From positions 1-49,825 of IMG/VR virus record IMGVR_UViG_3300033388_000805: a DNA stretch of 49,825 bases. The stretch is one strand, 5' to 3'. This document shows positions 3,394 through 49,825 of this stretch, in pieces. Below the pieces are notes generated by a model. The model did not search any database. It worked only from the letters and a program-made list of their open reading frames with translations, and was not told the origin of the DNA. Origin of the DNA: a virus. Within the stretch, counting starts at the first letter, position 1, and each line of letters starts with the position of its first letter. A program made the position numbers and the translations under genes.

Positions 3394-4038
3394 ATGTTCA
3401 CATTAATAGCAGGACTAGCCTCCTCGATACTTGGGGGTATAGGAAAGAGAAAACAGGCAGAGGCCCAGAATAAGGCTCTAAAGGCCCAGTTCGAAATGAA
3501 CAAGAGTATCACCCAGGAAGCCCTGAGTACACTGAGTTACCGCACAGACGTGGCTGAGACTGAGGTAGTCAGAGATAGGGTTAACAGGAATATAGCAACC
3601 AAGAAGGCTGTAAGGAAAGCTACAGGAAGCGCTAAGGTTTCCGCTGCCCAACTAGGTATCGCTGGAAGAAGACCAGATTTAGCCCTCAAGGAAGCATCTA
3701 AGGAAGGCGCTAATCTGATCTCCGATAGTAACATCAACGCTCAGATCCAGTTACAGAACTTAACGAACCAGTTGAATGACACAGCGGCTACTATGGTAGC
3801 GAACCTGAATAACGCTAGACCAGTGTACGCTGAGGTTCCCGGCACAGGTGCGCTCATAGTGAACGCTGGAATTAGCTTAGTGAATTCCTATGACGGTATG
3901 AGCGATGAATCTAAATCGGAACTCAGCGCAGATGTATCGAGTTTATTCAAGAAAGATTCCATACCCGATTGGGGTGTTACTAATCACTTCGGCAATAACA
4001 CAGGCTCCGCTGGAGCGCAAATCGGAATTGGTGCTTAA
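3394..4038 (+). CDS. Internal virion protein (T7 gp14-like)
   Basis: The 214-residue product starts with a hydrophobic, glycine-rich stretch (MFTLIAGLASSILGGIG) followed by a long Ala/Gln/Lys-rich helical region, as in the T7 gp14 class of ejected core proteins (196 residues in T7). It lies directly between tail tube B and the larger gp15-like protein. In T7 the homologue is ejected and inserted in the outer membrane to start the DNA channel. The start follows AAGGAGG closely. Sequence similarity to gp14 is weak by eye; order and size carry the call. Confidence 0.7.
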   Translation: MFTLIAGLASSILGGIGKRKQAEAQNKALKAQFEMNKSITQEALSTLSYRTDVAETEVVRDRVNRNIATKKAVRKATGSAKVSAAQLGIAGRRPDLALKEASKEGANLISDSNINAQIQLQNLTNQLNDTAATMVANLNNARPVYAEVPGTGALIVNAGISLVNSYDGMSDESKSELSADVSSLFKKDSIPDWGVTNHFGNNTGSAGAQIGIGA

Positions 4039-6892: not shown

Positions 6893-9800
6893 TGCTCGCA
6901 GAACTATATAGCAACCAAGGTAATCTAGAAGCTATGAGTTCAGTTGTACAGAAAGCTGGTCTAGTGTCTTCCCCGGAGGACACTAATCAGTACACTCTGG
7001 ATGAACTGTACGCTAACGGTGCAGCTAAGAGAGATGCTATGGATGCCTACAATGAGGAACTAGATAATTACGATGACAGTATCCTCAAGGCTGTATATGG
7101 ATCTTTTAGGCATAGTACAGCATTCGGTGCATTAACTGAACAAGCAATAGAGAACGTGAACCAAGACTTTGATCCTGAGTTCAATATCGTTGACTCCATT
7201 GATGAGATTAAACTTAATGGGTATTCCAAGGAAGAACTTGAGGTACTCAGCAAGGGTCGTAATAATGAACATTTTGCATCTCTTGTAGAGAAGGTTAATG
7301 ACTACAAGGATCATAAGATGAACCTACAGGCCCTTGGTGTACCCTTAGCTATGGCCTCTCAGTTACTAGCTGAGGTAGCTAACCCTATTAACTACATACC
7401 CTTCATTGGGCAGGGAGCGGCTGCAACCCTCACAGTTAAAACAGTTCTAGCAGGGGCGGCTATTCAAGGGGCTTTTAATGCAGGGGAGGAAGCCTTAATT
7501 AGTACTGTATATAAAGACCGCAGTACAGTAGATTATGCCGCCTCGTTCGCCTTGGGGGTAGCCCTGAGCGGTACTATTAACGCAGCTAGACTCGGCCTAG
7601 ACCGTAAGCGCATAACTCAAGCGGCGACTGATGCTAAACAAACTAAGATATACGCTGAGTCTATGCTCAAGGATAAAGCCGACGAGGGTGTAGCCACAGC
7701 GAAAGCAGGACCACCCCCAGAGAGGGACTACACAGACTCTAGTGCCTTACGAGATAAAGATGGGGTATTGAATCCTGAGGTAGCTGATGATATGCGGGCC
7801 AAGGGGTACGATCCTGATAACGAAGTTGATAATTGGGTGCATCGCTATGATACACAAGGACTAATCCCTAGAGTACAGAAGGTAGTCCAGGAGACACTCA
7901 AGTTAGCTGGATTCTCCCAGACATTAGCAGGAAGTCCTAATAAGCATACTAGAGCTTTAAATAGGGTTCTATTCGAGCATGGTGAGGGTGGCACAGGTGT
8001 CCATAAGGAACACACAGCGACCCTTGAGGCTCATATGCAGCATAACTTCGTGTACGCTAAATACGCAAAGAGGTATGAAGAAGCTAAAGCACTGTTTACC
8101 CAGAGTGGTAAAGATACTGGTCTTACTATGAATGATTTCAATACAATTGCATTTAAGTACATAGATGGTGGGGAGAATTGGAAAGATCCTAGGTTAACTG
8201 AGGATATGATTAAGACGCTGGAGGACTTCCAAGGTGTATATAATACAGCCATTGGGGAGGTAACTGAAATAGCGCATAAGGCCGGTGTCTCGGAATTCAA
8301 GGATTGGCAGGGCATAGATAACTTCTTGTTCCGTCGACATGACCCTGAGGCGTTATACAAGTTAACCCAGGAGTTCGGGGACGATGGGAAGGCTATTAAG
8401 GAGTTATACCGTAAGTCTATAACTAATGGTGGTTGGAGACATTACTCGGATAAGATCATCCAGAAGGCCGGGGATAAGTACGATGCGACAGTAAAGGTAT
8501 GGAAAGCTAAAGGCTCTAAGGGACCCGAACCAGCTAAACCTGGGTACGATCCTAAAGACGTAGAAGCAGATATAGAACAGATAGCTAACGCTCTGTACAA
8601 CAGAATGATCAATAGGGCTACTACAACGACTGCTGATGCTAATCTTCTTAGTTCTGCGAACCAGAGTATACTATTAGACACCCTAGATGACCTTGGGTTA
8701 AGTGAAGCGAAGATGAAGCATTTCAAAGCTATGCTCAGAGAGTCTGGTAGGGATGTCAAAGGGGACCCATCTAAAGCTCGGATACAGATGGATATGACTA
8801 CCACTATAGATATTAACGGTAGGACCTTAAGTATGACTGATCTGTTAGATACTGATCTATCCCAAGGGTTCGCCTCAGTTGGTCGGTATTGGTTAGGAAG
8901 AGCAGCTATGGCTAGAAAGGGTGATCATCTTGCATCCGTTGCGGATATTCAGAAGACCTTGAATCATGCTGCTAAAGAAGGACTTAAAGCTGGTGTAGAT
9001 AAGAAGGTAAATAACCAAGAGACTAAGATTATGGAGCAGGGTATAAGGATGATCTTAGGGCAGTCTGCGGAAAGGGCAGATACTACAGGAGCTAAGTTCA
9101 TGCGTACCATTCGCAAGATGGCTGCTGCGTCATCCTTAGGTAGACTCGGTATAGTACAGGCAGGAGAAACAGGGCGTATGGTGGGTGCCGTAAACGCTGC
9201 CCAACGTATCCCTATGATCCGAGATTTAACTAAGGGCGTACTCACAGGTAAATTCAGTACAGCATCTCTAAAAGGTATTGAGGATTACGTCATAGGTGAT
9301 GTAGCCTTTAGGAAATTCTTGAACCACCCAGATTTCAGGGCAGATGACTTCGGAGAGAAGTCTGGTAAGGTTGATCAAGTCTTTGATAAGCTCGGGTATT
9401 ATCTTAGTCAAGCCTCTGGGTGGCACATAATGCACACTATGCAGACTAAGGGGTTAATAAATACTTTAGATCAGAAGTGGTACAAAGAGGTTATGGATGG
9501 TACTATGAAACCTACCCAGATGCGTGACTTAGGTGTAGATAATATTCTCATGGCAGACCTTAAGAGAAATATGAAGGCGCACGCTACAAAGACCGAAGGG
9601 TTAACCGGAAAGAAAACTCAGTGGGAAATGAATATAGAGAAGTGGGACCCTAAGACCCGTAGAGCTTATGGTATGATGCTCACAAGGAAATCTAATAACG
9701 CTATCCAGGGTATAATGACCGGAGAGACCCCTATGTGGCTGAATACAGAGATAGGGAAGTTCCTTGGTCAATTCAGGACGTTCTCTGTAGCTGCATTATC

Positions 9801-10327: not shown

Positions 10328-13300
10328 ATGGCTTATAGTTATATACAAGTAGTAGGAGACGGTGTAACCTCAGTGTACACCCTAGCGTTATCTGGGCCTT
10401 CACCTGGGTACATATCTCAGGATCATATCTTTGTATCTTATGATGGGATTCTCCAGGATCAATCAGATAGGGAATTCGTCACGGAACAACAGGTAAGACT
10501 CCTGACGGTTCCTGCTGGTGGTACAGTAATTAAGGTATTCAGAGAGTCTGGCATAGAGAACCCCATAGTGAACTTCGAGGGTGGTGCTGCGTTATCCGAG
10601 AGTAACCTAGATTTGAATACCACACAGATGCTTATGTTAGCCCAGGAGGTTGAGGATACAGCCGGGAGTACCACAGAGGAACTCGATGCTGCTGTAATAT
10701 CGGCTGCGGCTAGTGCTACCTCGGCTGCTGCCTCTGCTGTTACCTCGGATGCTTATGCGAATACCGCTGAGGACGTTGAGATAGAAGCCGGGAAGTACTC
10801 TGGTCTGCATTACAGGAATAAGACCCAGGAGCTAGTTGATAGTATCACAGCGACTCCTGGAGATATGCTCAAGAGTGTATACGATACGAATGACTCAGGG
10901 GTAGTAGACTTCGCTGATACAGCTAATGCGTTAGGTGGCGCACAAGCTACAGCTATAACGGCGAACTCAGCGCACGCAGCATCTACGAGTAACCCTCATG
11001 GAGTAGACGCAGATACCGTTAATGCGTTAGCCAAGGATAACACAGACGTATACACACCTACCCTAGATTATCACCCGGCTACGAAGAAGACAGTAGATGA
11101 CGCTGTGATCTCTGCGGGCGCTGGGGATATGACTAAGGTTGTGTACGATACGAACGATGATGGTACAGTAGACTCAGCGGATACCGCAGCGGCCCTCACG
11201 GGTACTCAGGCTACCGCTATCACAGATAATACCGCTAAGGTATCCTATAGTACCGCTGCCTCTGACGCTGTAGCCCTGAATACCGCTAAGGTAACTAATG
11301 CTACGCACACAGGGGATGTCACAGGGAGTACAGTTTTAACTCTGGCTGAAGTTAATGCTAATATAGGATCTTTTACTGCTGCGAATATTACTGTTAACGC
11401 TAAGGGGTTAGTCACTGCTGCTACTGATGGTTCTGGTGGAAGTGGCTCTGGTACTGTGATTGATGTACAGACTTATGGTACAGACACAGCAGCGATTACG
11501 TCTGCCTTTGCAGCAGCAGGACAAGGAGACACAGTACTCTTCTCTAAGGCTGCTGGTGGGTACACTCTGACTTCCCCCGTAACCGCTTCCTTCAATGGTA
11601 TCATCCAGGGTGGTATGAATACAGTAACCTTGTCTGGTACAGGAGGATTCATCCTAAGTGGTACTAAGTTACTCTTTGAGGATTTCTTCCTTAATAGTGC
11701 TGCTACGAATACAGCCTCGATCCCAGCGTGTACTGGTGTATCTGTAACTCAGAGTTATGTTACTGTACAGAACGTGTACATAGATAGATTAGATAAAGGT
11801 ATCGTGGTTACTGGTAACGTAGATCATAATATCAATAACATTAAAATGAGGAATATTAAGACTACTGCTATTGAGTTAGCTAATACTGTTGGTACTACGA
11901 TGTCCGATATTAAATACGACACAGACACAGGGAGTTACTCTAAAGTTCTCCAAGGGTTGCATGTGTACGGTGAGGGTTCTCAGGTATCTGATTGTGACTT
12001 CATTAATGCTGATGTCGGTTTGAAGATTCATGGGAGATCTGTAGGAACAACTGACTGGAACTTCTTTAATACTTGTTTCTTTGACCAGTGTACCTATGCT
12101 GCTTACATCTATAATACCACAACAAGCCAACAAGTCCGTGGGCAGATATTCGATCAATGCTGGTTCGCATCAAGTACTGGTGCTGCTGGGGTGTACATCA
12201 CCGGCCCTGCTGTGGTAGATGGAATTACATTCCAGGGCTGTACCTTTATAAATAACTTCCAGAGTGCAATCTCTCTTAATAGTGTCATAAAGAACCTTGA
12301 TATCAACGGGTGCGTATTCTCAGGGAACTCCGCAGTATCCTCAGGCACGTACTCCACGATTGTATCTAATCGGACTATTGATGGAAGTACTGAGGCCGAT
12401 GCTGCACTCATCAGGAATAACTTCTTTGGTTCCTGGGGTGCCTTAGCGAATAACCAGAATGCTGATATCCAAAGGGGTAACACTGACGCTACTATGTTCA
12501 TTGATGGTAATGTAGCCCTTAGTACAGTGACTACATCGAATGTTATAGCAGGATCTTCTGTTGCTCCTGAGTACGGGGTGAACTTCGGTGGTATCCCTAG
12601 TGCCTCTGGTGGTGGTTCGGGTGATATGACTAAGGCCGTTTATGATACTAATAATGATGGGACTGTGAACTCAGCGCATACTAGTGCTGCCTTGACGGGA
12701 ACCCAGGCTACAGCTATAAGTAGCAATACGTCAGCTAGACATGCCCAGAGCCACACAGTTGCTTCTCATAGTGACACAACGGCTACCGGGAGTGAATTAG
12801 AAGTATTAACTAATGGTAGTACTACCACGTTGCATTACCACTCTGCCCCCTCACATACTATAGCATCCCACAGTGACACAACCGCTACTGGTAGTGAACT
12901 AGAGACTTTAACTAATGGTAGTACAACTGCTTTACACTATCATAGTGCCCCCTCACATTCCCTGAATTCACACACGGCGGCAACTGGTACTGTGGATATG
13001 GGTGGACAGAATCTAGGTAACACGGCTACCGTGAGTAACACAGGGATTATTAATTATAGTTGTGGGTCTGGGTCTACCCATAATTTTTTACATAGTACTT
13101 CCTTAACCGCTTATTTAGCGTCAACCTTGCTTGCTCCCAATAGCGCTAATACAGTAGCTTTAGGTTCTTCTGGTCAGTACTGGAGTGATGTACAGTCCCA
13201 AGTATTCCACCAGAAGGGTGGTGGTTATCTTGATACAATGGATGATTTAGCTGTGATGGCTGAGTTCACCCCTATGACCACTGTAGTGAACTCAGAGGAA

Positions 13301-22000: not shown

Positions 22001-22040
22001 GCCGGGGGTTATCCTGAATGATACCAAGGGGTTACAATAG

Positions 22041-22074
22041 AAAGTGTCTCATTAATCCGAGTGAGACACTTTTT
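22041..22074 (+). terminator. Late terminator, copy 1 of a twin pair
   Basis: AAAGTGTCTCA at 22041-22051 pairs perfectly with TGAGACACTTT at 22062-22072 and runs into a T tract. Nearly the same hairpin, including the loop start TTAATC, occurs at 44515-44548. It ends the structural and packaging transcript. Confidence 0.85.
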
Positions 22075-22690: not shown

Positions 22691-22708
22691 TGTATACAAT
22701 TGGATACA
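22691..22708. repeat. TGTATACA-type palindrome, copy 1
   Basis: TGTATACAATTGGATACA differs at one base from the perfect 18-bp palindrome found at 25987. This is the leftmost copy and the only one in the genome-end region. Confidence 0.6.
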
Positions 22709-36916: not shown

Positions 36917-37288
36917 ATGAAGGTAATAGTAATCCCAGATAATTGTTATATCACCAGAGTCCCTGAGGTTAACGATTGTAAAGGCTGTGTATTTGAGAAC
37001 CTAAGTGAAGATGAGAATAACGAATTAGACTGGTGGTGCGCTATGGATAAGACTTGTAGAGTACCCTGTGTTGGTACTATATACGCCATAGTGGAATACA
37101 GGGATGACGAAGAAGGAGGAAACCTGATGGGAGACTTTTGTGATTTCTGTGGGCAAGGGGTAGATACAGAGTATATATTTAATTCTACGGTGGATTGTAA
37201 TGATGGGGCAGAGCTAGGTACAGGTGATTGGCAATGCCCTGCTTGTGATCATACTAATTTTGAACGCTGGAGACGGGAGGATACATAA
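36917..37288 (+). CDS. Cys-rich protein, possible two zinc sites
   Basis: The 123-residue product has two Cys groups: NDCKGCVFE plus WWCAMDKTC and VPC in the N-terminal half, and DFCDFCGQG plus WQCPACDHT in the C-terminal half. The second group looks like a CxxC...CxxC zinc ribbon. AAGGAGG lies upstream of an in-frame ATG at 37127, so the C-terminal ribbon could also be made alone (53 residues). Its stop overlaps the exonuclease ATG (TAATG). Confidence 0.5.
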   Translation: MKVIVIPDNCYITRVPEVNDCKGCVFENLSEDENNELDWWCAMDKTCRVPCVGTIYAIVEYRDDEEGGNLMGDFCDFCGQGVDTEYIFNSTVDCNDGAELGTGDWQCPACDHTNFERWRREDT

Positions 37289-38235
37289 TGGCATTTAAAT
37301 TACCAACCGTGGCTCCCGTCGAGGTAGTACCTGGGAGAGAGTGCCTGATAGACGCTGATATGGTAGCTTATTACGCCGGGTTCGGTCAGGATGACTGTAT
37401 GCTATCCTCAGCAACCCGGAGGTGCGACGAGAGGATGCAACAGATGATAGACGAGAGTCAGTCTGAGAGTTACACAGCGTACCTCACTGGCCCTGGGAAC
37501 TTCCGGGACCATATAGCAACCCTCCAGCGATACAAGGGGAACCGATATGACAAAGATGGTAAAAGAACCAAGGAACAACCAAGGTGGCTCCAAGAGATCC
37601 GAGCGCACCTCATCGACAAATGGGATGCTATTCTGTGCAATGGGGAAGAAGCTGATGATGCACTTGGGATACACCAAGCGAAGAACCTCAGGGAAGGTAA
37701 AGGGAGTATAATCTCATCAGGAGATAAGGATCTCCAGATTAACCCTGGGTTGCACCACAATATGTACAACGGGTACGTTACAGAGGTGACTGAATTCGGT
37801 CATCTTGAGGTAGATACCAAGGGTAAAGTCAGGGGGTCTGGTCTGATGTTCTTCTACGCTCAGATGCTCATGGGGGATAACGCTGATTGGATCAAGGGTT
37901 TACCTAAGGTTACTGAGGAGATGAAGGAGATATTCCCGGAGATACGTAGAGGTGGCGTTGGGCCTAAGACTGCCTATCAGATTCTATACGACAGTCCTGA
38001 TGAATTACAGCTCTCTAATACCGTATGGTTCTGCTATAAGTCCTACTGGATGGAGCATAGCTATAAACATTGGAAAACAGGGAAGGAATTCAAGGCTGGC
38101 TTGGGTACCGCCAAGAAACAATTTATTGAACAGGGGAGATTATTATGGATGCGACAAGAAGTAGCCCAGATGTGGGAACCGAGATTCCAGATTCTTATAT
38201 TTATAAACAAGCAGGATATGATGTATTATGTATAG
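37288..38235 (+). CDS. 5'-3' exonuclease (T7 gp6-like, FEN type)
   Basis: The 315-residue protein degrades host DNA and removes primers. It shows the FEN-family acidic motifs LIDADMVAYY near residue 20, NGEEADDALG near 117, SSGDKDLQINPG near 144, GDNADWIKGLP near 195 and the helix-hairpin-helix GVGPKTAYQIL near 222. The family's usual C-terminus ends around LLWMRQEVAQMWEP. The last 17 residues are translated from DNA downstream of the junction and are probably new. The final 115 bases of the genuine coding part occur a second time at 38880. Confidence 0.9.
   Translation: MAFKLPTVAPVEVVPGRECLIDADMVAYYAGFGQDDCMLSSATRRCDERMQQMIDESQSESYTAYLTGPGNFRDHIATLQRYKGNRYDKDGKRTKEQPRWLQEIRAHLIDKWDAILCNGEEADDALGIHQAKNLREGKGSIISSGDKDLQINPGLHHNMYNGYVTEVTEFGHLEVDTKGKVRGSGLMFFYAQMLMGDNADWIKGLPKVTEEMKEIFPEIRRGGVGPKTAYQILYDSPDELQLSNTVWFCYKSYWMEHSYKHWKTGKEFKAGLGTAKKQFIEQGRLLWMRQEVAQMWEPRFQILIFINKQDMMYYV
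38074..38188 (+). repeat. 115-bp direct repeat, copy A (exonuclease 3' end)
   Basis: It runs from AAAACAGGGAAGGAATTC to CCGAGATTCC and is identical to 38880-38994. It encodes the exonuclease segment TGKEFKAGLG to MWEP and also, in another frame, the start MDATRSSPDVGTEIP of the following gene. Copies lie 806 bp apart and flank a methyltransferase-like gene. Confidence 0.95.
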
Positions 38236-38762
38236 GAAAAGACACAGGGGTACAGAATTATACCCCTCCCGATAATGTTTATGGTATTATAGCTAACCCT
38301 GTGTGTACTGAATTCAGTTGTGTGAAGGGGTTTGATAAAGAAGGAGATATCCAAAAGGGTATGTTCTTAGTTAATCACTGCCGCAGAATAATTCAACAAG
38401 CAAAACCTGTATTCTGGTGTATAGAGAATCCAGGCAGTGGTAAACTTAAAGAGATATTAGGTCCCCCGCAATTCCAGTACCAGCCTTGGGAATTCGGTAG
38501 CCCTTGGACTAAACTAACTGCGCTCTGGGGTAACTTCAATATCCCCACTAAACTTTATACTAAATGGGACGATGTTCCTAAGAATGATAAGCTATATATG
38601 CGCCCCGGAAGGAAAAAACCGGGGTTAGCCTTTCTACATAAATCAGCTATTTCCCATATCCCGGAATTCGCACCATTTAAGAGTAGTATTGTAGACGATA
38701 ATGGTTTTAGATCCTTATGCCCACAAGGGTTCGCTAAGGCTTTTTTTGATGTTAATCAATAA
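38145..38762 (+). CDS. C5 cytosine-methyltransferase-like protein, altered N-terminus
   Basis: The 205-residue product has AGYDVLCIGKD near residue 23, VYGIIANPVCTEFSCV near 45 (motif IV, usually PPCxxFS; the catalytic Cys is kept), FWCIENPGSGKLKE near 90 (motif VI, ENP) and KLTALWGNFN. Motif I (FSGTG type), which binds AdoMet, should come first but is replaced by MDATRSSPDVGTEIP, translated from the exonuclease repeat. The protein is therefore probably truncated and may be inactive. It could have modified phage DNA against restriction. Start ATG at 38145 follows GGGGAGA. Confidence 0.55.
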   Translation: MDATRSSPDVGTEIPDSYIYKQAGYDVLCIGKDTGVQNYTPPDNVYGIIANPVCTEFSCVKGFDKEGDIQKGMFLVNHCRRIIQQAKPVFWCIENPGSGKLKEILGPPQFQYQPWEFGSPWTKLTALWGNFNIPTKLYTKWDDVPKNDKLYMRPGRKKPGLAFLHKSAISHIPEFAPFKSSIVDDNGFRSLCPQGFAKAFFDVNQ

Positions 38763-38779
38763 TAAACAATGGAGTGTAT

Positions 38780-38881
38780 ATGGAAACCGAAGTACCCTAT
38801 GAGTTAACTGAGTACGAACGAGTGAAGTCTGGGGAATACTACAGGGAGGATTATGGCTACGACGAACCCAAAGATACTTAA
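38780..38881 (+). CDS. 33-residue hypothetical protein
   Basis: ATG at 38780 follows ATGGAG at suitable distance and encodes METEVPYELTEYERVKSGEY and thirteen more polar residues. Its end overlaps the old endonuclease VII start at 38853. It is a plausible original upstream partner of that gene. No function can be assigned. Confidence 0.35.
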   Translation: METEVPYELTEYERVKSGEYYREDYGYDEPKDT

Positions 38882-39062
38882 AACAGGGAAGGAATTCAAG
38901 GCTGGCTTGGGTACCGCCAAGAAACAATTTATTGAACAGGGGAGATTATTATGGATGCGACAAGAAGTAGCCCAGATGTGGGAACCGAGATTCCTAATGG
39001 TAGCGTATATCCAACTGGAGGTTGCTTATGTGATCATCCAGTACAAGACTATGATATCTTAG
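38853..39062 (+). pseudogene. Endonuclease VII start fused to copied exonuclease end
   Basis: The frame begins MATTNPKILK after GGGAGG, which matches the N-terminal PKILKVGKEL of endonuclease VII at 39429. It then switches, within the shared bases AAACAGGGAAGGA, into the copied exonuclease end (TGKEFKAGLG...MWEPRF) and runs 20 residues into unrelated sequence. It is a 69-codon chimera with no complete domain. It records a recombination event and is unlikely to work. Confidence 0.6.
38880..38994 (+). repeat. 115-bp direct repeat, copy B
   Basis: It is identical to 38074-38188. It starts inside the former endonuclease VII leader and ends in the start of the 164-codon gene at 38951. Complete identity means the duplication is recent or an assembly product. 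Confidence 0.95.
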
Positions 39063-39445
39063 TGGAATCAGCATGTACTTCTGGAGATGTAATCAGGTTA
39101 GTACACGGGTGGTACAAAGATGGCTACTTCAAAACAGTAAGCATCACCCATGCCTATGAAGAACAGACTGATAAACGGTATCATACAATTGCTGTATTGA
39201 CCACAGAAAATTATAAGATTGATTTACTATTCATGCAACCTAATATGGATGTATATAAAGTAATGCTAGAGTATCCCTTGAGTATACAGAGACAGGTATT
39301 AATTAATGATACTCTTGTACAGGGACTTGGTTATTCTTCTGCTCCTATCTATGTGTACTTCCATGGTAAATTCGAGGATAAATACAAGAAGTACTATCCA
39401 GATAAGGAGTTCAAATATATTGGAGCAGACACCAAAGATTCTTAA
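38951..39445 (+). CDS. Possible nucleotidyltransferase-fold protein
   Basis: The 164-residue product shares MDATRSSPDVGTEIP with the methyltransferase-like protein because its first 45 bases lie in the repeat. The rest has QDYDILVESACTSGDVIRL, NYKIDLLFMQPN, LEYPLSIQRQVL and a C-terminal EDKYKKYYPDKEFKYI. The order DYDI, then IDLLF, then a Lys/Tyr-rich helix resembles phage Pol-beta-type nucleotidyltransferases, but the first Gly-Ser motif is not clear (GSVYPTGG may be its remnant). Start ATG follows GGGGAGA. The assignment is tentative. Confidence 0.4.
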   Translation: MDATRSSPDVGTEIPNGSVYPTGGCLCDHPVQDYDILVESACTSGDVIRLVHGWYKDGYFKTVSITHAYEEQTDKRYHTIAVLTTENYKIDLLFMQPNMDVYKVMLEYPLSIQRQVLINDTLVQGLGYSSAPIYVYFHGKFEDKYKKYYPDKEFKYIGADTKDS

Positions 39446-39791
39446 AGTAGGGAAGGAGCTAACCGCCTGGAAAGTTCAGAATACCCCTGAGAAATGCCCT
39501 TTATGTGAAAGGGATTTCAGGAGTATCACTATGGCGAACCGGATAGTAGACCATGATCATACCACGGGTGAAATCCGGGGTGTACTCTGTCGGAACTGTA
39601 ATGGCCTTGAGGGTAAAGTATGGAACCTAGCGGTACGTGCAGGGAATTGCATAGATAACATCAAGTGGCTACGGAATTGTATAGACAGATGGTTAACCTG
39701 GAAGTCTACCGGGGTGTATTACCCAGGTACTACTCTGGTTAAAGGCAAGACGGTAGCCCCGAAAGTTAAACGAAGGAGACGTAAGAGATGA
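39420..39791 (+). CDS. Recombination endonuclease VII
   Basis: The 123-residue product has the endonuclease VII signature KCPLCERDF, IVDHDHTTGEIRGVLC and RNCNGLEGKVWNLA: two CxxC pairs for zinc and the DHDH catalytic core. It resolves branched DNA before packaging, a job done by gp3 in T7. TTG at 39420, after AAGGAG at 39404-39409, gives EQTPKILKVGKELTAWK. The older start MATTNPKILK at 38853 is now cut off by inserted DNA. Longer frames from 39306 overlap the previous gene and carry no conserved residues. Confidence 0.8.
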   Translation: MEQTPKILKVGKELTAWKVQNTPEKCPLCERDFRSITMANRIVDHDHTTGEIRGVLCRNCNGLEGKVWNLAVRAGNCIDNIKWLRNCIDRWLTWKSTGVYYPGTTLVKGKTVAPKVKRRRRKR

Positions 39792-44312: not shown

Positions 44313-44508
44313 TTATAGTACTCAGGTAATTCAACCATGGCATATATGGTTAGAATACGACCTGAACCCCTGGGACGCTGACATCGTTAAACGCATCCTG
44401 AGGACCAAGAAGGTATCAGGAATGACGAAAGACGAACAACGGATACTAGACTACCAGAAAATCATCCACTTCGCCCAGGAGCGTATTAGACAGCTCTCAG
44501 AGGGATAA
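44185..44508 (+). CDS. DUF3310-like small phage protein
   Basis: The 107-residue frame ends with QPWHIWLEYDLNPWDADIVK, RILRTKK, and ILDYQKIIHFAQERIRQL, a pattern like the DUF3310 group common in phages (W.I..EY.LN, IVKR, DYxKIIH). Function unknown. This conserved part begins near 44298, just where the HNH gene ends. The first 38 codons overlap the AP2 coding region and may be only a fortuitous extension from ATG 44185 (after AGAGGG) that rescued translation after the insertion. A terminator follows directly. Confidence 0.55.
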   Translation: MKTEEDILHLMKLNESVIKRLMSLGIIRTTEESCQDYHIGESNYSTQVIQPWHIWLEYDLNPWDADIVKRILRTKKVSGMTKDEQRILDYQKIIHFAQERIRQLSEG

Positions 44509-44514
44509 GACCAG

Positions 44515-44548
44515 AAAGTGTCTCATTAATCTATGTGAGACACTTTTT
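44515..44548 (+). terminator. Terminator, copy 2 of the twin pair
   Basis: AAAGTGTCTCA pairs with TGAGACACTTT and runs into five T residues. Its stem and the loop start TTAATC match the terminator at 22041. It separates the metabolism genes from the structural operon. Confidence 0.85.
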
Positions 44549-48854: not shown

Positions 48855-49825
48855 TGGCAGAACAGGATGTATCCGCTAATCTAACGTACCCGATGTCCCA
48901 GAACTTCTCTGCTGACAAATTCGCATTAACCATTGAGATGTTCGATGGTAGAGTCCACGAGACTATGCAAGCAGCTAGTGTTCTAGATGGAGTTAATGAA
49001 TTCAAAGCCCTGATCGGTACAGACACGATGTCTAATAACATCATGGGTAATCCTACTTTGCAGGCTGTGGCCCCTGGGGTTGAACCTGCGGCTGGGACCA
49101 TTGAAGTAGGTAAGAATATAGTCCAGGTTAAAACTCCGATTATCGCTCGGGTAACTACAGCTATGCTAGCTGACGTTCAGGATCATCTGAATATCAGATC
49201 CAGAACCCCGGCGAACTTCGGGAAGCGTATTGCGAAGTCTATTGATGAAGTCCAGTTCGTACAGATGGTTAAGTCTATTCTGTATGATGATGGCGGTAAG
49301 GGTACTGGTGGGATTCTCCCTGTAGGTACAACCTATGACCTAGCCTCTGGGGATGAGCTTGACGCTGCTGACCTGACCACAGCTATCTACAAGATTTCTG
49401 AGGACTTGATGACTCTTGAAGTAGGCCAGGAAGATGGTAAGTTATACATGGCTCCTGCTCAGTACTTCACTCTGTTGAAGAACCAGCTTCTTCTCGACAA
49501 AGATATCAATAAAGATAACGGTTCTTATGCCCATGCGGCCATTGAAGTAGCCTCTGGTATGACCCTGGTTGCAACTAATAGAATCTCCCAGGCGGCTGAT
49601 ACAGTAGCTTCTCCCTCTAAGGTTGATTCTACAGCGGCCCTCTATGGTTCTACCTATGAGACTTCTGCCGCAGAAGCTAAGGCAGTAGCCCTGTTTATTA
49701 CCGCTGAGACTATCATGGTAGCCCAGAGTATCCCTCTGACTTCTGATGTGTATTGGGATAAACGTCTATTGACTTGGTTCATTGATTCTTATCTCGCCAT
49801 CGGTTGCGGTCCTGATCGAACTGAT
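48854..49825 (+). CDS. Major capsid protein, 5' part (continues at base 1)
   Basis: ATG at 48854 follows AAGGAG. The frame is open to the end of the window and, because 49712-49825 repeats 1-114, continues to TAG at 141, giving 332 residues in total. Its sequence (SQNFSADKFALTIEMFDGRV, VKTPIIARVTTAMLADVQDH, IDEVQFVQMVKSILYDDG, LYMAPAQYFTLLKN) fits the T7 gp10 HK97-fold family, as do its place after the scaffold and the terminator behind it. The duplicated part must be counted once. Confidence 0.9.
   Translation, partial: MAEQDVSANLTYPMSQNFSADKFALTIEMFDGRVHETMQAASVLDGVNEFKALIGTDTMSNNIMGNPTLQAVAPGVEPAAGTIEVGKNIVQVKTPIIARVTTAMLADVQDHLNIRSRTPANFGKRIAKSIDEVQFVQMVKSILYDDGGKGTGGILPVGTTYDLASGDELDAADLTTAIYKISEDLMTLEVGQEDGKLYMAPAQYFTLLKNQLLLDKDINKDNGSYAHAAIEVASGMTLVATNRISQAADTVASPSKVDSTAALYGSTYETSAAEAKAVALFITAETIMVAQSIPLTSDVYWDKRLLTWFIDSYLAIGCGPDRTD
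49712..49825. repeat. Terminal overlap, right copy (circular assembly)
   Basis: This is the exact counterpart of 1-114. Removing one copy leaves a 49,711-bp circle. Confidence 0.95.

Follow-up and report, generated by a model that had tools for sequence, protein, structure and literature searches.

Two identical copies of the 3' end of an exonuclease gene stand in one assembled phage genome, each followed by a different gene, and the locus raises the question of whether this repeated DNA serves to donate starts to arriving genes, as an earlier note proposed, or records an exchange between phages. The window (the whole stretch of DNA that was analysed) is a metagenome-assembled phage record of 49,825 bp. 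Its genes for polymerase A, exonuclease, endonuclease VII, phosphoesterase, dUTPase, a ThyX-type protein and ribonucleotide reductase all point in one direction; family matches were obtained for the exonuclease, endonuclease VII, a methyltransferase and a nucleotidyltransferase only, and the other genes were named by order and resemblance. The locus lies between the exonuclease (phrog_107) and endonuclease VII (PF02945), and its features given below are all on the + strand. Relatives were sought by exonuclease, polymerase, nucleotidyltransferase and exact patterns, which yielded four close ones (L003, L004, L038 and L039), or five informative genomes counting the window; the genome contigs searched held only remote exonucleases. 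No RNA families or tRNAs were detected in the window, and native and foreign parts could not be told apart by codon usage.

Positions 38074-38188 (copy A) and 38880-38994 (copy B) are the same at 115 of 115 bases, as had been claimed, with a start-to-start spacing of 806. An identity of this length is not due to chance. The sequence makes up the final 115 bp of the exonuclease gene and occurs only twice in the record, where the 114-bp overlap of the record's ends is the only other long exact repeat in 49.8 kb. Each copy contains a ribosome-site-like stretch and an ATG (AGGGGAG-N6-ATG, with the ATG at 38145 or 38951) that is out of frame with the exonuclease, and the ORFs behind both copies (38145-38762 and 38951-39445) open with MDATRSSPDVGTEIP. 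The exonuclease itself (37288-38235; PHROGs E 7e-54; aligned to L003 at 80% and to L004 at 72%) is native up to 38188, and its final 15 codons run into an inserted methyltransferase fragment.

To learn where the start came from, we compared the exonuclease ends of the relatives. The exonucleases of L003 and L004 end in ..PLE/PLD, just past the point where that of the window changes. The ORF that follows in L003 has its ATG (3714) at this same position and overlaps the exonuclease, whose stop is at 3768, by 55 nt; in L038, this start likewise opens the next gene and the overlap is also 55 nt, and L039 resembles L038, the start reading MDET.. inside the exonuclease end in both. In L004, the ATG is present with a very short frame, and endonuclease VII starts slightly further on, also inside the exonuclease end. 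Because out-of-frame starts lie inside the exonuclease 3' end in L003, L038 and L039, the start is native rather than cassette-borne. By this comparison, MDATRSSPDVGTEIP is evidently the native N-terminus of a gene whose start follows from overlapping-gene architecture, and the overlapped start is written by a conserved C-terminal motif of the exonuclease, QGRLLWM. Thus, the proposal that the repeat supplies a ribosome site and a start holds insofar as both following ORFs use the AGGGGAG and the ATG, but not as a donation to arriving genes, since the start is native to the next gene.

Copy B gives a nucleotidyltransferase-like gene (38951-39445; phrog_1614 E 6e-4; tblastn to L038/L039 E ~1e-14) its ribosome site, start and first 15 codons, an arrangement that is found in L038 and L039. 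In these two genomes, the slot between exonuclease and endonuclease VII holds the same nucleotidyltransferase-like gene in the same order and on the same strand, followed by endonuclease VII (tblastn), and so copy B represents the old arrangement and its gene the slot's old occupant. When aligned with L038/L039, the window's nucleotidyltransferase is missing 14 residues right after residue 15, that is, right after the repeat. At the sensitivity of the searches, neither the annotated phages nor the viral contigs contained any member of the nucleotidyltransferase family beyond those of the window, L038 and L039. Next comes an intact endonuclease VII gene (39420-39791; Pfam PF02945 E 4.5e-14; 69% to L003, 61% to L004). 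The ATG of its relatives is absent, apparently lost to the nucleotidyltransferase end, and TTG at 39420, with AAGGAG ~10 nt upstream, is the likely start.

The ORF behind copy A (38145-38762; phrog_757 E 1e-23; relatives L006-L018) fuses 15 exonuclease-overlap codons to a DNA methyltransferase without its first ~14 codons. We found 27 loci with related methyltransferases. All 13 that were aligned (L006-L018) carry a K-I/L-I-L-x-L-C-type head ahead of the point where homology starts, opening KKIILHLCADLGS-DS.. or similar, a strand followed by SAM motif I (KIILHLCADLGS). This head directly precedes the first residue in common with the window (DSYIYKQAGYDV), where the window has MDATRSSPDVGTEIP instead, and it is missing from exactly 38188/38189. 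Like other phrog_757 phage DNA methyltransferases, the window copy is homologous from codon 16 to the natural C-terminus; unlike them, it lacks the first strand and SAM motif I, which is expected at the N-terminus of a functional member of this family. From these alignments, the gene is best read as a fragment cut at 38188/38189, exactly the end of the repeat, and the encoded protein probably has no methyltransferase activity. Such a beheaded gene is an example of a truncated gene that passes for intact with a plausible start. No exonuclease or endonuclease VII gene adjoins any of the 27 methyltransferase loci. Of the two parent arrangements, the exonuclease-nucleotidyltransferase type was found (L038, L039), and a parent phage with a methyltransferase in the exonuclease-endonuclease slot was not, either among the 27 loci or in pattern searches of viral contigs.

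These two cargoes bear directly on the start-codon-donating cassette of the earlier note, a 115-bp piece that would move or recombine at an insertion hotspot with varied cargo, giving each a start. Each cargo has a shortened N-terminus that meets the common start at one shared nucleotide, and each is richer in AT than the exonuclease (39% and 36% GC vs 48%); the slot also varies among relatives, and all of this would suit such a cassette. However, the start is positionally conserved as well as native, the gene behind copy B was already in the slot, and the gene behind copy A did not arrive complete; having lost SAM motif I with its first codons, it was cut rather than served. No mobility gene was seen nearby, the methyltransferases of the 27 loci are found away from exonucleases, and a search of other viral contigs for the same repeat with other cargo found neither the repeat nor the start pattern, the relatives bearing only their own diverged exonuclease end. 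We therefore regard a mobile cassette as highly unlikely. A related idea, which we hold to be quite unlikely, is that the exonuclease end is a standing acceptor: QGRLLWM would be written to hold a ribosome site and an ATG in another frame as well, and DNA fragments arriving behind it would become new proteins whose N-terminus is borrowed; the two shortened cargoes would be its products, perhaps through repair of one break at 38188. A transposon target-site duplication was rejected, the duplication being 115 bp of coding exonuclease, with a methyltransferase fragment and a small ORF as the ORFs between the copies and no terminal inverted repeats. An intron or intein and an integron-type cassette were also considered and rejected.

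The DNA between the methyltransferase fragment and copy B points to another origin for the duplication. At 38776-38881 lies a remnant (75% DNA identity to L003 3739-3809) in which the last codons of an exonuclease (WKPKYPMS, stop at 38805-38807) are overlapped by a small ORF (38780-38881). It is followed by an orphan endonuclease VII start (MATTNPKILKTGKE, 38853-38893) that continues in frame into the exonuclease sequence of copy B (ORF 38853-39062). The whole of 38776-38893 is homologous to the exonuclease tail, small ORF and endonuclease start of L003; its WKPKYPMS differs from the window's own WEPRF, and by these comparisons the stretch comes from a different lineage than the resident genes. 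The orphan start matches the real one (39432-39457) at 88% over 26 nt and is therefore no recent copy from the same genome. Copy B begins inside this orphan start, as the earlier note had recognised, at 14 bases, AAAACAGGGAAGGA (38880-38893), which are common to the endonuclease VII start and the exonuclease and identical between otherwise unlike sequences, in agreement with the proposed recombination at short homology. The joint thus has the two sides of a mosaic, with an orphan endonuclease start and exonuclease tail that differ from the resident ones, and a methyltransferase that is absent from the slot in relatives.

A plain tandem duplication within one genome, running from the exonuclease end to the endonuclease start (806 bp) with one cargo later replaced, would also leave the observed spacing, and the 14-bp identity resembles a duplication end point. 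A recent event of this kind predicts matching sequence to the left of both endonuclease starts, where only the 88% match over 26 nt was seen; in addition, the exonuclease tails differ and the cargoes share nothing past the repeat. This makes a simple tandem duplication very unlikely.

We consider it probable that the locus is a recent recombination scar in a phage, left by an exchange between coinfecting phages, and so a mosaic joint with a partial duplication. Originally, endonuclease VII would have followed the nucleotidyltransferase, which itself started out of frame within the 3' end of the exonuclease. An exchange with DNA of other phages would then have put ~690 bp between the exonuclease and its duplicated tail, a patchwork of the headless methyltransferase fragment followed by the tail of a relative's exonuclease, a small ORF and the start of an endonuclease VII. 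The exonuclease's final 115 bp would be present twice because this patchwork rejoined the exonuclease at AAAACAGGGAAGGA. Since the tail of the exonuclease serves at the same time as the nucleotidyltransferase 5' end, inserted DNA spares the nucleotidyltransferase only when the tail is duplicated, and for this reason the repeat resembles a start donor. Copy B may have been tolerated or needed, as it would return the ribosome site, start codon and first 15 codons to the nucleotidyltransferase. The absence of any difference between the two 115-bp copies suggests that the duplication step is young compared with the divergence of the parts. If the two copies recombined, 806 bp would be expected to drop out, and the order exonuclease, nucleotidyltransferase, endonuclease VII to return. 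This model is built on the repeat, the overlap geometry in the relatives, the methyltransferase truncation, the foreign endonuclease start and the 14-bp identity, all of which are observed; coinfection, the order of events and selection for copy B are what we infer from them.

Three observations count against a recombination scar. The methyltransferase parent was not found, and no other viral contig had either pattern searched, from the repeat or from the orphan start. The two cargoes are joined within a few bases of one shared nucleotide (38188/38994), a feature that the model does not require. This shared position could reflect selection, being just past the last conserved exonuclease codons (W..P), or one break at 38188 repaired by run-off copying of the broken end, or a branch point between haplotypes. 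A DNA hairpin at the junction, as a cause of the shared end point, was not found beyond shuffles (z -0.3), and there are no inverted repeats at the ends of the duplication. Finally, the repeat length of 115 is close to that of the 114-bp end overlap, which may be the assembler's k.

This last point raises the possibility of an assembly or library chimera, in which two coexisting haplotypes (exonuclease-methyltransferase fragment and exonuclease-nucleotidyltransferase) were joined in tandem and each real genome has a single copy. The record is a circularly closed assembly, whose positions 1-114 equal 49712-49825 inside a 333-codon ORF that is open across the ends, and this overlap is probably set by the assembler (k-1, k = 115); terminal repeats have been reported to cluster at assembler k lengths (CheckV; PMC8116208). 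The ORF across the ends reads, by eye only, like a major capsid protein. Under such a chimera, the shared end at 38188/38994 would be a graph branch point, and the internal repeat is one base longer than the end overlap. However, the sequences joined at 38880 share just 14 bases, far fewer than any assembly k, and we estimate the chance of such an end-to-start match at ~1e-6 or less. A chimeric read, or a PCR template switch or amplification product, would be required, and the record contains no N. We judge a chimera to be unlikely, and continue to favour recombination in the phage.

Several other sequences in these genomes were recorded. A 16-bp palindrome, GTATACAATTGTATAC, has 11 sites between 22.7 and 40.0 kb when as many as 3 mismatches are allowed, against 0.37 expected, and is perfect in three of them (sites at 22692, 25764, 25988, 26314, 27315, 27956, 29126, 29193, 30009, 33394 and 39987), and looks like a candidate operator or other regulatory site of the phage. 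TAACTACCCCCTCTAGTAG has four sites at a tolerance of 2 mismatches, where 0.03 would be expected (22223, 29151, 29221 and 44618), and is a possible phage promoter. Two hairpins that are 83% alike and end in T runs (GTGTCTC..GAGACACTTTTT; 22027-22074 and 44501-44548) are probably duplicated terminators. A 102-nt unit is present twice in tandem (12752-12955, 75% alike) within a 1097-codon ORF. In L039, an HNH-like ORF (by eye; 8124-8600) lies between the dUTPase-like and ribonucleotide reductase genes, and L038 is without it.

Among the close relatives, the exonuclease-endonuclease slot has no additional gene in L004; it contains a small ORF in L003, the nucleotidyltransferase in L038 and L039, and the patchwork in the window. 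These comparisons mark it as a variable position, which is the part of the suggested insertion hotspot that stands; five close genomes are too few to establish a hotspot. More distant phages often have a small overlapping nuclease gene right after the exonuclease, or one or two small genes ahead of that nuclease. The exonuclease-endonuclease VII/HNH pair of Zobellviridae and some Autographiviridae (Vibrio phage 172P1, Roseobacter phages CRP-5 and CRP-6, Citrobacter phage CVT22 and Erwinia phage VyarbaL) likewise has a small nuclease after the exonuclease, often overlapping its 3' end, with 0-2 small genes between; in contrast to the window, these exonucleases are remote (~31-36% identical), and there is no methyltransferase, nucleotidyltransferase or repeat in the slot. 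Overall, the locus has the look of a usual mosaic joint between phages rather than of a novel device for capturing genes. It would show, in a recent case that is easy to read, that two overlapping genes can be parted by new DNA through a displaced crossover of related phages while the second stays unsilenced, its start still borne by the duplicated tail of the first. Illegitimate and homeologous recombination have been described as comparable sources of phage mosaicism (PMC2327257). The lambdoid phages of that study also show gene-scale exchange between related phages, joined close to gene ends where homology is slight or absent, with gene order otherwise kept; the window differs in that its joint left a 115-bp partial duplication, because the recombining sites were displaced, an endonuclease start against an exonuclease end.
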